Below, piece after piece: positions 37,777 to 42,483 of a stretch of DNA of 64,000 nt (positions are counted from its first letter, which is position 1; each line of letters begins with the position of its first letter). The stretch is from Clostridia bacterium (GTDB lineage: Bacteria; Bacillota; Clostridia; Oscillospirales; CAG-272), in the NCBI GenBank assembly GCA_017482055.1, contig JAFUOH010000001.1, positions 124,001 through 188,000 of the forward strand. Direction: 5' to 3'. Under the pieces are notes generated by a model. It was not told the origin of the DNA, made no database searches, and saw only the letters and a program-made list of their open reading frames with translations. The position numbers were made by a program, and so were the translations under genes.

Positions 37777-38853
37777 ATGACCGACTTTAAAGAAATCCTC
37801 ATCTCACATGCCGCCGCGTACCCGCTCATGAAGCCCTGCGACGGGGTGAAGCTCGTCTATCAGGCGACTTTCGGCGGCGGGCACATGATCTCCGACGCAG
37901 ATGCGGCGCATCGACGCATCATCACGGAATATGCCGCCATACCTCACACAGCCGCGCCCATGCGGGTAGAATCGCTCGGCGACACCGCGAGGGTATACCT
38001 TGACGGCGAGCTCTCGCAATATGAGCTTTCATTGATAGCGCGGATGTTTTGCGCCTCCGCAAAGCGTTACGCGCGCGGATACGTGGATGCCGACGAGACG
38101 ACAAGACTGAAATTTGACGAACGGCTTTGTATGCTCGGCGAGGTATGCAAAGAGGGACATTTTGCGTTTACACCTGCGGAGCTTAATGCATATATCTCCG
38201 AATACCGCGCGGCAGGCTGTCCCGCGGTGAGCCACAGCGACGTCTATCGCGATTCATATTTACCCGCATATCGAGTAATCGACAGCTATTACGTGCGGCT
38301 TATTCCCGCCCTTGTTCGGCTCACGGCACTGCTTCCATCCTCGGAACGTGTCGTGGTTGCCATTGACGGGCGCTGCGCCTCCGGCAAATCCACCGCCGCA
38401 CGGCTGATTGCCGACGTTTTTTCCGCCGAGACCGTGCATATGGACGATTTCTTCCTGCCGCCCGAGCTGCGCACTCCCGAGCGGCTATCGGAGGTTGGCG
38501 GCAATCTTCACCGCGAGCGGTTTGTTTCTGAGGTGCTCCCGCATCTTAGGGATACGGGCGGATTTTCATACCGTGTGTTCGAGTGCTCGACCTTTTCCTA
38601 TGCCGACAAGCCGCGGTATGTTGCGCCATCAAAGCTCATCATCTGCGAGGGATCATACGCACTCCATCCCGCATTCGGGAAATATTACGACATGGCGATC
38701 TTCTCGGATGTGGATCCCGATGAGCAGTGCAGGCGTATTCTTCTGCGAAACGGCGAGTATATGCTGACCCGCTTCAAAAACGAATGGATCCCCATGGAAG
38801 AACGCTATTTTGAGGCATTCGGAATAAAAGATAAATGCGACCTTACAATATGA
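37777..38853 (+). CDS. P-loop uridine-kinase-like protein with extra N-terminal domain
   Basis: 358 residues in two parts. The N-terminal about 170 residues form a domain I cannot name, with YPLMKPCDGVKLVYQATFGGGH and repeated Tyr/Arg-rich helices. The C-terminal part is a uridine kinase/phosphoribulokinase-type fold: VVAIDGRCASGKSTAARLI (Walker A), VHMDDFFLPPELRTP (substrate Asp-Asp), LIICEGSYALHP and RILLRNGEYML. It begins 11 bases after the ECF S component and is surely co-transcribed. Inference: it phosphorylates the imported compound (nucleoside or vitamin), trapping it in the cell. The RBS AAAGGAG is clear. Confidence 0.85.
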   Translation: MTDFKEILISHAAAYPLMKPCDGVKLVYQATFGGGHMISDADAAHRRIITEYAAIPHTAAPMRVESLGDTARVYLDGELSQYELSLIARMFCASAKRYARGYVDADETTRLKFDERLCMLGEVCKEGHFAFTPAELNAYISEYRAAGCPAVSHSDVYRDSYLPAYRVIDSYYVRLIPALVRLTALLPSSERVVVAIDGRCASGKSTAARLIADVFSAETVHMDDFFLPPELRTPERLSEVGGNLHRERFVSEVLPHLRDTGGFSYRVFECSTFSYADKPRYVAPSKLIICEGSYALHPAFGKYYDMAIFSDVDPDEQCRRILLRNGEYMLTRFKNEWIPMEERYFEAFGIKDKCDLTI

Positions 38854-38866
38854 GGTCGCATTTTTT
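38833..38866 (+). terminator. Intrinsic terminator overlapping the end of the kinase gene
   Basis: AATGCGACCT (38834-38843) and AGGTCGCATT (38853-38862) with a T run after. The stem's left arm encodes the last residues and the stop codon lies in the loop. Confidence 0.82.
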
Positions 38867-38941
38867 ACATAGACCGCAATTTTGGAGTTGAAATTTTTTC
38901 TTATCTCTGTTATCATAAATACAGCGAGGGGAGGGAGTCGT

Positions 38942-41578
38942 ATGTTTGAGGTGCTTTCATATATACATGAAAATATCACAAATCAGGTGAGTGCCGCCGA
39001 AACCGCGGAGCATTTCGGATATTCAAAGTGGTATTTCTGCAAGAAATTCCACGAGTTTTCCGGCATGACGTTTACGGAATATGTACGGCGCTACCGCATT
39101 CAGCTTGCGGCTATCGATATCCTCGCGGGAAAAAAGGTCACAGACGTGGCGTTTGATTACGGATACGACACCCCGGGAGGCTTTAATAAGGCGTTTTTGA
39201 AGGAATACGGCTGTATGCCGAGAGTATATAAAAAGCAGGCAAAGGAATGCCAGCTTTACTATGAAAGGAGAAAGAATTCAATGTATAAGCTGACGGATCG
39301 CTGTATGATGCTTCGCGATGAAGCTGTAAACGGTAAGCGCTATACGGACAAATACTGCGCCGAGCGGAATGTATACTTTTCAATCGGACTTTCCGAGGCG
39401 ATGGCTAAGGGGCTCACACCCGATGAATGTATGGCGGGCGGAGTCGTGAATGTGCTGGAAAAGTTTACGCCGTTTATAGCTCCGAGTGAGCTTATCTGCG
39501 GCTTTAACTTCGGTGATGCGCCTGACAAGGGTGAGTCGAATATGCCCCAAAACGATGAGGCGGGTATATCACTTATGAGGGAGAACGGTATTTCCGAGGA
39601 GGATATCGGAAAGTTTTTCTCGGGTATCTGCGATTTGCCGCTTCCCAAAACCATTATGGGACAGGGCTTTACAAGAGAGTGTGATGTGCTGACACTTACC
39701 GAGGTCGAAAAAGCCGCCAAAGCCGAGCGCTCGTCTCTCGGGCGCAATACCAATGCCAATCATACCGTGATAGGCTACGAAAAGGTTCTGAAATATGGCT
39801 TTGAAGGTCTTTATAAGCAGGTGTGCGAATATGAGGCGAAAAACGGAAGCTCACCGCTTTATACATCCGCGAAAAGCATCTGTCTTGCCGCCATGAAAAT
39901 GGGCGAAAAATATGCCGCAGAGGCAGAACGGCTGATAGCAGAGAATGATGCGGCGTACAGGCGTCAGGACCTTGAATTTATCGCCAAAACCTGCAGACGT
40001 GTGCCGAGACATCCTGCCGGGACCTTTGCCGAGGCGGTGCAGTCGCTTTGGTTTGCGCATATTATAAACACCTGGGAGGATCTGATAAATGCAAATTCAC
40101 TCGGAAGGCTGGATCAGATACTGTATCCATATTACAAGTCGGATGTAGAGAAGGGTGTCATTACAAGGGAAGAAGCCTTCGAGCTTATCGGATGCCTTTG
40201 GGTCAAGCTGTACAGGGACTACGATGTCCAGCAGTCCTGTGTGGGCGGTACCTTCCCCGACGGCACAAGTGCGGTCAACGAGCTGTCTTACATGATGCTG
40301 GATGCTACGGAACAGCTTGATTTCATCCGCTGTCTCTCGGTGCGCTTCGGTAAAAATACCGAGAAGGAATTTATAAAGCGCGCACTTGAGGTGGTAGGTC
40401 ATGTTCAGAAGGGTGTGCCGTTCTTCTTCAACGATGACGTAATGATTCCCGCGCTTATTGAAAAGGGCATATCGCGGGAGGATGCGTATAACTACACCCA
40501 GCTCGGATGCGTTGAAACCGTGATACCCGGCAGGTCCAATCCCCACGCCGTTGCTGGAGAGACCAATCTTCTGAAGGCAATCGAATTTGTGCTTAACAAC
40601 GGCTGCAGTATGGTCGGCGATCGCTGTGCGACGGGAATCCCGACAGGCGAGCTTTCTATGTTTGACACATACGAAAAATTCCACGAGGCGGTCATGGTAC
40701 AGGTGGACAATATAATCGACCTTGCCTGCTCCATCGTCAAAAAGCTGACCGACGGCATTGCTTCACCCAAGCCCTACAAATCACTGCTTACCGACGGCTG
40801 TCTTGAATCGGGTAAGGATTTCAACAGCGGGGGCGCGGTGTACGATTACCACCAGATAATGCTTGGCGGTATTCCCAACCTTGCCGATTCACTGACGGTC
40901 ATAAAGAAATTTGTTTACACCGACAAAAAATACACATTACATGACATAAAGTCCATCCTTGAAGCAGACTATCCCGATGAGCGGGTAAGGCTTGAATTTC
41001 TTAATAAAGCCGCTAAATTCGGCAACGATATTGATGAGGTGGATGATATAGCCGTACAGATCACCGAGCACGCCTGCGATATGCTTGATGCGCTTTCGGA
41101 AAAATACGGGCTGTCGTTCCACGCACAGCCGTTTACCTTCCTCTGGATGCTGGATTACGGCAGAAACAGTGCGGCATCTCCCGACGGACGCCGTGCGGGT
41201 GAGCCGATAGCATACAGTGTATCGCCTATGCAGGGACGGGATTTCAACGGTCTTACAGCTGTGCTCAATTCCATCTCAAAGCTTCCCACAAAGCGTACCG
41301 CAGGCACTACATCCGCAATCGTTGAGGTGGATCCCAAGCTGTTCGGTGACCGCAACATTGATACGCTGGCGGATATACTCATCGCGGCGGGCAAAAAGGG
41401 ACTGAGCAATGTGCAGTTCAATACGGTGGATGCAGATACACTGAGAGACGCAAAGGCACATCCCGAAAAATATAACAATTTGGCGGTTCGGGTCTCGGGC
41501 TTCAGCCAGAAATTCAATCTTCTTAACAGTGATCTCCAGGATCATATAATCGGAAGGACGAAGCACTCATGTCTGTAA
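38942..41578 (+). CDS. AraC-type HTH fused to glycyl radical enzyme
   Basis: 878 residues in one frame from ATG 38942, after a strong GGGGAGGGAG. Residues about 1-110 are a complete AraC double HTH: VSAAETAEHFGYSKWYFCKKF and VTDVAFDYGYDTPGGFNKAFL. From about residue 114 on it is a glycyl radical enzyme of normal length (765 residues) with the active-site GCVE Cys (C523) and the radical motif RVSGFSQKF (Gly 853, 25 residues from the end). The Cys-x-Glu type points to a dehydratase or C-C/C-N lyase, not pyruvate formate-lyase; the substrate is unknown. A second ribosome site precedes an internal in-frame ATG at 39281, so the enzyme may also be made alone. Activating enzyme follows with 10-base overlap. 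Confidence 0.85.
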   Translation: MFEVLSYIHENITNQVSAAETAEHFGYSKWYFCKKFHEFSGMTFTEYVRRYRIQLAAIDILAGKKVTDVAFDYGYDTPGGFNKAFLKEYGCMPRVYKKQAKECQLYYERRKNSMYKLTDRCMMLRDEAVNGKRYTDKYCAERNVYFSIGLSEAMAKGLTPDECMAGGVVNVLEKFTPFIAPSELICGFNFGDAPDKGESNMPQNDEAGISLMRENGISEEDIGKFFSGICDLPLPKTIMGQGFTRECDVLTLTEVEKAAKAERSSLGRNTNANHTVIGYEKVLKYGFEGLYKQVCEYEAKNGSSPLYTSAKSICLAAMKMGEKYAAEAERLIAENDAAYRRQDLEFIAKTCRRVPRHPAGTFAEAVQSLWFAHIINTWEDLINANSLGRLDQILYPYYKSDVEKGVITREEAFELIGCLWVKLYRDYDVQQSCVGGTFPDGTSAVNELSYMMLDATEQLDFIRCLSVRFGKNTEKEFIKRALEVVGHVQKGVPFFFNDDVMIPALIEKGISREDAYNYTQLGCVETVIPGRSNPHAVAGETNLLKAIEFVLNNGCSMVGDRCATGIPTGELSMFDTYEKFHEAVMVQVDNIIDLACSIVKKLTDGIASPKPYKSLLTDGCLESGKDFNSGGAVYDYHQIMLGGIPNLADSLTVIKKFVYTDKKYTLHDIKSILEADYPDERVRLEFLNKAAKFGNDIDEVDDIAVQITEHACDMLDALSEKYGLSFHAQPFTFLWMLDYGRNSAASPDGRRAGEPIAYSVSPMQGRDFNGLTAVLNSISKLPTKRTAGTTSAIVEVDPKLFGDRNIDTLADILIAAGKKGLSNVQFNTVDADTLRDAKAHPEKYNNLAVRVSGFSQKFNLLNSDLQDHIIGRTKHSCL
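39264..39283 (+). promoter_or_regulatory. Internal ribosome binding site and start for the enzyme part
   Basis: AAAGGAG (39264-39270), 10-base spacer, ATG 39281-39283, in frame with the upstream HTH. Translation from here gives MYKLTDRCMMLRDEAV..., which is where glycyl radical enzymes of this size normally begin. Confidence 0.65.
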
Positions 41579-42483
41579 GCGGGGTTATATCGAATATTTC
41601 CCGCGGATCGCTTCATGACGGTGTCGGAGTACGGACGGTGGTTTACTTCAAAGGCTGTCCCATGCGGTGCAAATGGTGTCACAACCCCGAAACCTTTGAA
41701 AAACGGTGTGATATAATGTTTGCCGCGGAAAAGTGCATCGGATGCGGTGAATGTGCGCGCGTTTGCCCCGAGTGTCATGTTATCGTGGATGGTGTGCTGA
41801 AATTCCGCCGCGAGGGCTGTGCGGGATGCGGCAGATGCGCTGATGCCTGCATGGCGGGAGCGCTTTCTGTGTGCGGTGAAAGATACACCGCCGAGGAGAT
41901 ATTCGCGAAGGTGATGAAGGATTCGCACTATTATAGAGAGAGCGGAGGCGGAGTCACGCTTTCGGGCGGTGAATGCCTCACCCAGGCGGACTTTGCGGTG
42001 GCGATCCTTGAAAAATGCCGCTCTGAGGGTATAAATACCGCCATTGAGAGTGCATTCTGCGTTCCGTTTGCCAACGTGCAAAAGGTGCTTCCGTATACCG
42101 ATCACATTTTCGCCGATCTGAAGCATCATGATGCGGAGCTTCACAAAAGATACACGGGGGTATCAAACGATCTGATAATTGATAACCTCCGAAAAGTATC
42201 ACAGCTTCATAAAAGCATGACAGTACGGATACCGCTCATCCCCGGCGTGAACGACAGTATCGGAGATATGAGCGGATTTGCTGGAATTATTCGCACATTC
42301 GGTGACGGTATCAAGGACGTGGAGCTTTTGCGGTACAACTACCTTGCGGGCGCCAAATATGAGAATTTCGGGCTTGAATATGTATCCTTCAGTGAGCGCG
42401 CGCAGTCGGACACGCAGACGAATGCTTTGACGGCGGCTCTTAATAGGGCGCTTGATGGCAAATGTACGGCCTTCTGCCGATGA
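41569..42483 (+). CDS. Glycyl-radical enzyme activating protein (radical SAM)
   Basis: 304 residues. The radical SAM motif is CPMRCKWCHNPE (CxxxCxxC, about residues 30-37). Two ferredoxin-like clusters follow, CIGCGECARVCPECH and CAGCGRCADACMAG, as in the activases of dehydratase-type glycyl radical enzymes (PFL activase lacks them). SAM-binding region GGGVTLSGGECLTQ is present. ATG 41569 overlaps the enzyme gene by 10 bases, GGAAGGA precedes it. It installs the glycyl radical on the upstream enzyme using S-adenosylmethionine. Confidence 0.95.
   Translation: MSVSGVISNISRGSLHDGVGVRTVVYFKGCPMRCKWCHNPETFEKRCDIMFAAEKCIGCGECARVCPECHVIVDGVLKFRREGCAGCGRCADACMAGALSVCGERYTAEEIFAKVMKDSHYYRESGGGVTLSGGECLTQADFAVAILEKCRSEGINTAIESAFCVPFANVQKVLPYTDHIFADLKHHDAELHKRYTGVSNDLIIDNLRKVSQLHKSMTVRIPLIPGVNDSIGDMSGFAGIIRTFGDGIKDVELLRYNYLAGAKYENFGLEYVSFSERAQSDTQTNALTAALNRALDGKCTAFCR

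Follow-up and report, generated by a model that had tools for sequence, protein, structure and literature searches.

Can a single gene encode both an enzyme and the switch that controls it? This question is raised by a locus in a 64,000-nucleotide stretch of DNA from a Clostridia bacterium (the window; GCA_017482055.1, contig JAFUOH010000001.1), in which one unbroken frame joins an AraC-type double helix-turn-helix (HTH) to a glycyl radical enzyme (GRE). A candidate second start lies within this frame, at the point where the enzyme would usually begin.

The fusion gene and its relatives

The initial annotation read the frame as a double HTH followed in frame by a full-length GRE with GCVE and RVSGFSQKF motifs, and this reading is borne out. 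The HTH (residues 1-100) leads through a short linker into a complete GRE (Table 1). Two tandem HTH motifs over ~100 residues, the hallmark of the AraC/XylS family, are matched by the Pfam models HTH_18 (residues 22-99; 68.6 bits, cut-off 33.6) and HTH_AraC (residues 8-48; 26.9 bits, cut-off 26.6). The PFL-like domain (residues 170-733; 414 bits) and the C-terminal glycine radical domain (Gly_radical, residues 759-859; 85.9 bits) that characterise the GRE superfamily both score above their curated cut-offs. An in-frame TTG at 38882, upstream of the predicted -10 element, has no stop between it and the ATG. A stop codon or frameshift near the junction had been named as a sign of chance read-through; the window sequence contains neither.

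Table 1. Features of the HTH-GRE locus in the window.
Feature	Position	Strand	Basis
Likely terminator of the kinase-like gene 37777-38853; hairpin followed by a T run	38836..38860	+	By eye; loop of 9 exceeds the limit of the hairpin scan
Predicted operator CGCAATTTTGGAGTTG, presumed target of the HTH	38875..38890	+	Motif search; ~-48 to -33 from the predicted transcription start
Predicted sigma70 promoter TTGAAA-N17-TATCAT, TG before the -10; operator overlaps the -35	38888..38916	+	Promoter scan; place of the -10 kept in relatives
HTH-GRE fusion gene; long product of 878 aa from ATG 38942	38942..41578	+	Frame, Pfam, relatives
AraC-type double HTH, MarA/SoxS/RamA/Rob-like; recognition helix GYSKWYFCKKF	38942..39241	+	Pfam, PDB comparison
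Internal Shine-Dalgarno AAAGGAGA (39264-39271) and ATG 39281-39283; predicted enzyme-only product of 765 aa	39264..39283	+	Sequence, relatives
GRE domain; C523/E525 (GCVE), G853 (RVSGF)	39281..41578	+	Pfam, alignment
GRE activase; 10-nt overlap with the GRE stop	41569..42483	+	TIGR02494, 317.7 bits (cut-off 174.35)

A search for homologues with the same architecture, which the annotation had suggested, drew on a scan of genome contigs (34 loci) and on searches of 59, 295, 394 and 391 genomes. It yields 28 distinct fused loci, 36-69% identical and all with the same in-frame order of HTH and GRE. This count was made after merging copies, with 16 record pairs that share an identical 800-base middle stretch each taken as one locus. 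The HTH-GRE fusion is a real and conserved architecture, far beyond chance.

All loci with titles come from metagenome assemblies. A host gut (goat, sheep, water deer, water buffalo or yak) is named for 14 of the 22 fused loci of the contig scan, the other titles giving no host; the carriers of the fusion are uncultured Clostridia, many from herbivore guts. The distribution of the gene is patchy. Matches at E <= 1e-90 occur in none of five same-genus genomes and in 21 of 295 family genomes (weaker matches being other GREs), and matches at E <= 1e-130 in 5 of 394 order genomes and 11 of 391 class genomes, the last three counts including the window's own genome and HTH-less relatives.

Several loci call for separate mention. 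L064 lacks the first 393 query residues and may or may not have an HTH; it stands as HTH-less in the first tree and was omitted from the second. L068 starts at a contig edge, which may hide an HTH, and was counted as HTH-less in both trees. The 1065-codon frame of another GRE, L088, was considered as a further N-terminal fusion and rejected, since its N-terminal part has no Pfam match and the extension was taken, by eye, as open-frame noise. Two related fused genes each have a TAG in frame inside the GRE part (L047:7234 and L051:1189), which may reflect sequencing error, decay or stop read-through. In four fused loci the fusion is preceded, within ~1.1 kb and in the same orientation, by a separate AraC-type gene (L038:2370-3170, L039:5030-5833, L041:1992-2786 and L052:4106-4915); those of L038 and L041 combine a cupin or AraC-binding domain with an HTH.

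In a GRE tree of 42 family members (28 fused, and 14 counted as HTH-less) and six other GREs, the family forms a single clade with support of 100/100. Fused and HTH-less genes interleave within it, and the HTH-less L054, L066/L067, L095 and L103 are placed among fused members. By parsimony, the fewest changes are six, and the starred branches of the tree force at least five; six changes would fit one HTH fusion followed by five HTH losses. Support for the order in which the deepest members branch is weak (86/60 and 94/67), and L106 and L107 are on long branches. The HTHs of the three deepest fused members (L104, L106 and L107) reach 109-127 bits on a fusion HTH profile built without them, compared with at most 58 bits for the separate AraC genes at these loci, so that a common origin with the other fused HTHs is likely. 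The HTH also appears to be under purifying selection, with dN/dS values of 0-0.09, in each pair lower than or close to the value for its GRE; five of six close pairs could be estimated, and several dS values are near saturation.

The annotation had also allowed that close relatives might carry the HTH as a separate gene. Searched against the retrieved flanks of 12 loci counted as HTH-less (L064 and L068 being cut, and some flanks short), the fusion HTH profile finds no AraC-type gene at E <= 1e-3, nor does it find one in the flanks of L095, L103 and L105 (L112-L114). Loss of the HTH on joining an upstream operon shows as a trend only: 5 of 26 fused and 6 of 13 HTH-less genes have a same-strand gene no more than 110 nt away (p = 0.13), a count confined to rows with an upstream frame, with L068 among those left out.

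The internal start and the enzyme domain

A strong ribosome site and an ATG at the usual start of the enzyme, and with them the possibility of two products, had been noted at the outset. Many HTH-less relatives do begin at the position of this ATG, which encodes residue 114 of the fusion. Residue 114 is methionine in 25 of 25 fused members outside the three deepest (24 of 24, plus L093). The 19-nt stretch before the internal ATG pairs with the anti-Shine-Dalgarno sequence at a mean of -11.6 kcal/mol, compared with -2.9 over all codons of the same genes. Nearly all of these members have a strong Shine-Dalgarno; the weakest site is that of L055 (-4.8). In L052, L057 and L072 the Shine-Dalgarno is kept although the sequence there differs. 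AGG or AGA make up 43 of 49 arginine codons in the eight codons before the internal ATG, against 307 of 954 elsewhere, a skew whose Fisher value of 5e-15 is overstated because the rows are related. The skew points to selection acting on the nucleotides ahead of the internal ATG.

The three deepest members have R (L104), S (L106) and I (L107) at this position, which means that methionine is not required there by the fold. L104 has an ATG one codon earlier with a weaker Shine-Dalgarno (-7.8). L106 and L107 are fused and have no ATG at the junction, so the long form can stand alone. With the methionine and the Shine-Dalgarno both conserved elsewhere, a second, enzyme-only product from ATG 39281 is likely alongside the fusion.

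In the window GRE, C523, E525 and G853 are intact in the alignment, making catalysis plausible. The active-site cysteine and the radical glycine, C523 and G853, are present in all covered rows (L071 ends before G853), including fused rows with altered catalytic loops. The dedicated radical SAM activase that GREs require is encoded next in the window, and an activase relative is found within 2 kb downstream in 20 of the 28 fused loci and is absent from that range in the other eight. With its complete fold, its GCVE and RVSGF loops and the adjoining activase, the enzyme resembles PFL/glycerol dehydratase-type GREs such as diol dehydratase, HypD and CutC. NANS is specific to the family, the aligned relatives differing at these residues, which have catalytic roles. 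Among the equivalogs of known GREs (HypD, CutC, sulfopropanediol dehydratase, IAD, HPAD and PFL), all GRE models among the best 25 of 33 matches score far below cut-off, with HypD at 367 (cut-off 1100) and CutC at 337 (cut-off 1050). The best PDB matches of the GRE part are a diol dehydratase, an entry named formate C-acetyltransferase, CutC, a glycyl radical protein and HypD; no chain is common to the GRE-part and HTH-part matches listed.

Clues to the substrate were sought by a Pfam scan of chosen neighbours at 16 related loci and the window. Carbohydrate genes are located beside six of the 16 loci: GH92, rhamnosidases and an RpiB-like isomerase at L054, an RpiB-like protein at L064, GH28 in L113 (beside L103), heparinase II/III in L112 (beside L095) and, next to fused members, GH38 in L110 (beside L104) and an MGH1-like gene in L109 (beside L107). 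As only L104 and L107 among these are fused, and both are deep, a sugar-derived substrate is a guess for the window gene. The RpiB/LacAB-like isomerase gene directly adjoins the GRE both in HTH-less L054 (L054:5384-5959) and in L064, where the GRE start is cut (L064:8456-9085). A gene for a URO-D family protein adjoins the GRE in two deep-branching members (L110:6692-7861, beside L104, and L114:8695-9768, beside L105). A putative lipoprotein is common to L049, L061, L065 and L069, and one of these weakly matches solute-binding proteins.

A few members have altered catalytic loops. In L055, GCVE has become GCAG (E525 = Gly), R850 is also glycine and no activase is found within 2 kb downstream; the HTH and the box described below are kept. 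L055 carries 13 changes at positions invariant elsewhere, where the remaining rows outside those that branch deeply have 0-7. The deep branches have 4 (L104), 14 (HTH-less L105, with intact loops), 56 (L106) and 38 (L107). R850 is lost in L106 and L107 (G976:C13 and G976:C16) and E525 in L106; both keep the HTH, and the box is absent. Such a pattern would be expected if the GRE domain can outlast catalysis as a sensor. A run of genes lies ~110 bp from L106, which is transcribed in the direction away from it; the first three proteins of the run have no Pfam match.

A conserved box upstream of the fused genes

The fused genes share a conserved upstream element, RCAAWWWTGGAGTDG. Its 3' end is located exactly 20 nt before a TAnnnT -10 element in 17 of 19 sites; the distance is 21 nt in L052, and L045 has TTTAAT at 20. 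A motif search at width 16 found boxes resembling CGCAATTTTGGAGTTG in 19 of 21 non-redundant fused upstream regions, from which L042, L046, L058 and L060 were omitted as near-copies. The motif scored 195, compared with 54-70 in six resampled sets (40 restarts against 15 for the resampled sets). The most fixed columns are CAA and GGAGT, less than one helical turn apart, and no second half-site is seen upstream of the box in the fused promoters compared.

The promoters of the relatives share TG and TATAAT at the -10 and have no full -35 consensus; their -35 position is formed by the box end, with T and G fixed, and not by TTGACA. The window's TTGAAA is a fair -35. The sigma70 promoter scan returned 7 sites where 5.6 are expected by chance and is on its own no evidence. 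The span of the window box in Table 1 is reckoned from a -10 at 38911-38916.

The box tracks the HTH. It is located directly upstream of the fusion in 24 of 28 fused loci, and in L049 it precedes the immediate upstream neighbour, whose end is 2 nt from the fusion, giving a total of 25 of 28; the box of L104 is weak (13.8 bits, 20 nt to TATATT). It is found upstream of none of 13 HTH-less genes (400 nt each, 8 bits; L068 is outside the 13), and at 15 bits there are no matches in 150 kb of 14 loci without the HTH. The only fused loci without a box, L048, L106 and L107, are also the only rows without Trp33 in the recognition helix (C, Y and A, respectively), a link that rests on three exceptions, two of them from one genome. 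The matrix was built from 19 of the sites, so the fit of those rows is inflated; of the six sites outside it (L042, L046, L058, L060, L049 and L104), four are close relatives of included rows and L104 is weak. With a conserved predicted operator that follows the HTH, action of the fusion on its own promoter, which the annotation had raised, is probable.

The only exact box in the genome to which the window belongs (54% complete) is that of the fusion. None of the 12 one-mismatch boxes in this genome has a -10 of 5-6 matches at 19-21 nt, and one has a -10 of 3/6. In 24 chosen genomes there are 16 exact boxes, nine of them with a -10 of 5-6 matches; all nine are sited before the fusion gene, or before its immediate upstream neighbour in the case of G067. 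Ten genomes without the fusion contain four exact sites, none with a -10. Reversed patterns used as controls match too, and the box by itself is thus not a rare sequence. Across the window's genome and the 24 chosen genomes, nothing firm points to a wider regulon beyond the fusion's own unit, extra sites in L049 and L053 apart. In L053 the box occurs a second time, ahead of a putative lipoprotein gene (L053:1441-1456), and the box of L049 (L049:4449-4464) precedes a putative lipoprotein gene co-directional with the fusion; these may represent a small regulon.

Proposed mechanism and known systems

We propose that one mRNA from the predicted promoter would give rise to two proteins. The long form would bind the box, overlapping the -35 position, via its MarA-like double HTH and control its own two-gene unit of GRE and activase. 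Here, the GRE fold would serve as the dimerising and ligand-sensing domain. The short form would be the enzyme on its own, which the product of the adjoining activase gene would render competent. The MarA-group HTH and the forward box at ~-48 to -33, which fits class II sites, point us to class II activation by the long form, the most likely mode given box position and promoter make-up. The sequence itself shows the fusion, that it is conserved, the signal for an internal start, and a box that is tied to the HTH; that the long form binds DNA, that it activates and does not repress, that it senses a substrate or product of its own enzyme, and how the dimer is made up are what we infer. Architecture and box fit the pattern of trigger enzymes, in which one polypeptide would serve both catalysis and regulation. 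Taken as a whole, this autoregulatory enzyme-transcription factor seems to us reasonably probable.

The same box could also serve repression, with the HTH blocking RNA polymerase at the -35 until a ligand relieves it. Autorepression is common among single-target regulators, and the box does overlap the -35 hexamer TTGAAA. However, the relatives have the box end and not TTGACA at their -35 while keeping TG and TATAAT at the -10, and class II MarA sites are described as forward boxes overlapping the -35, between -36 and -55 (excerpt of PMC12052159), which the box position fits; we regard an autorepressor as unlikely. If the long form were instead the only product, a single bifunctional polypeptide, the internal start would be a relic of the enzyme's old start codon. 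L106 and L107 indicate that the long form can be the sole product, but the methionine in 25 of 25 members, the Shine-Dalgarno-biased arginine codons in the linker and the Shine-Dalgarno kept in L052, L057 and L072 despite differing sequence argue against this, and we give it little credence.

What the long form senses may be judged from the members with altered loops. The HTH could read whether the glycyl radical is intact, the GRE unactivated or the Gly loop cut by oxygen, in which case the enzyme would carry its own signal; all fused rows examined retain Gly853 and Cys523, those with changed loops included. Yet L055 keeps HTH and box despite its altered E525 and R850 and the missing activase, and L106 and L107 keep the HTH, though not the box. 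These members argue against a purely radical-state signal, though Gly853 remains, and lean towards ligand sensing; a radical or oxygen sensor appears improbable to us. Much the same standing goes to a more elaborate, speculative scheme, in which a GRE dimer acts as a transcription factor that reads its own catalytic state (radical present, absent or oxygen-cleaved) and the ratio of long to short form from the two starts tunes mixed enzyme/switch dimers. An assembly or read-through artefact, or a functionless chance fusion, might be suspected from the TAG codons of L047 and L051. It is already refuted by conservation, given 28 distinct loci, purifying selection on the HTH and a box that tracks it, and deserves virtually no weight.

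GREs matter in the anaerobic chemistry of the gut, and the substrates of many are not known. A GRE with its own HTH and box would offer a genetic handle on its substrate, its promoter being a built-in reporter. The family may also capture the conversion of an enzyme into a regulator while intermediates survive: enzyme-only, dual and possibly catalysis-impaired forms. Comparative genomics here points to one gene giving both an enzyme and a switch by two in-frame starts.

The closest solved structures to the fusion HTH are those of RamA (51.5 bits), SoxS (50.0), Rob (44.6) and MarA (32.8), and the recognition segment GYSKW is common to the fusion, RamA, SoxS and Rob. MarA, SoxS and RamA are stand-alone proteins and Rob has a smaller C-terminal domain with a ligand role, whereas the C-terminal partner in the fusion is a whole GRE. 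As in the MarA group, so far as the source excerpts describe it, the fusion has a single box at a class II position; MarA binds DNA as a monomer via its two HTHs (excerpt of PMC8811837).

The initial annotation supposed that such fusions are not a described class. In line with this, the portions of open-licence papers covered by our literature searches describe no fused HTH-GRE architecture, and one paper that matched concerned separate regulators. The joining of a DNA-binding domain to an enzyme domain is itself already known, for example from BirA. The same combination is described in excerpts on BzdR, where an enzyme fold has turned into an effector domain (PMC3602430), and on PutA. What is new is that the partner fold is a GRE and that a second start and a box are conserved: BzdR, PutA and BirA use other folds, whereas the fusion pairs its HTH with a radical enzyme and has a conserved internal start that could release the plain enzyme.
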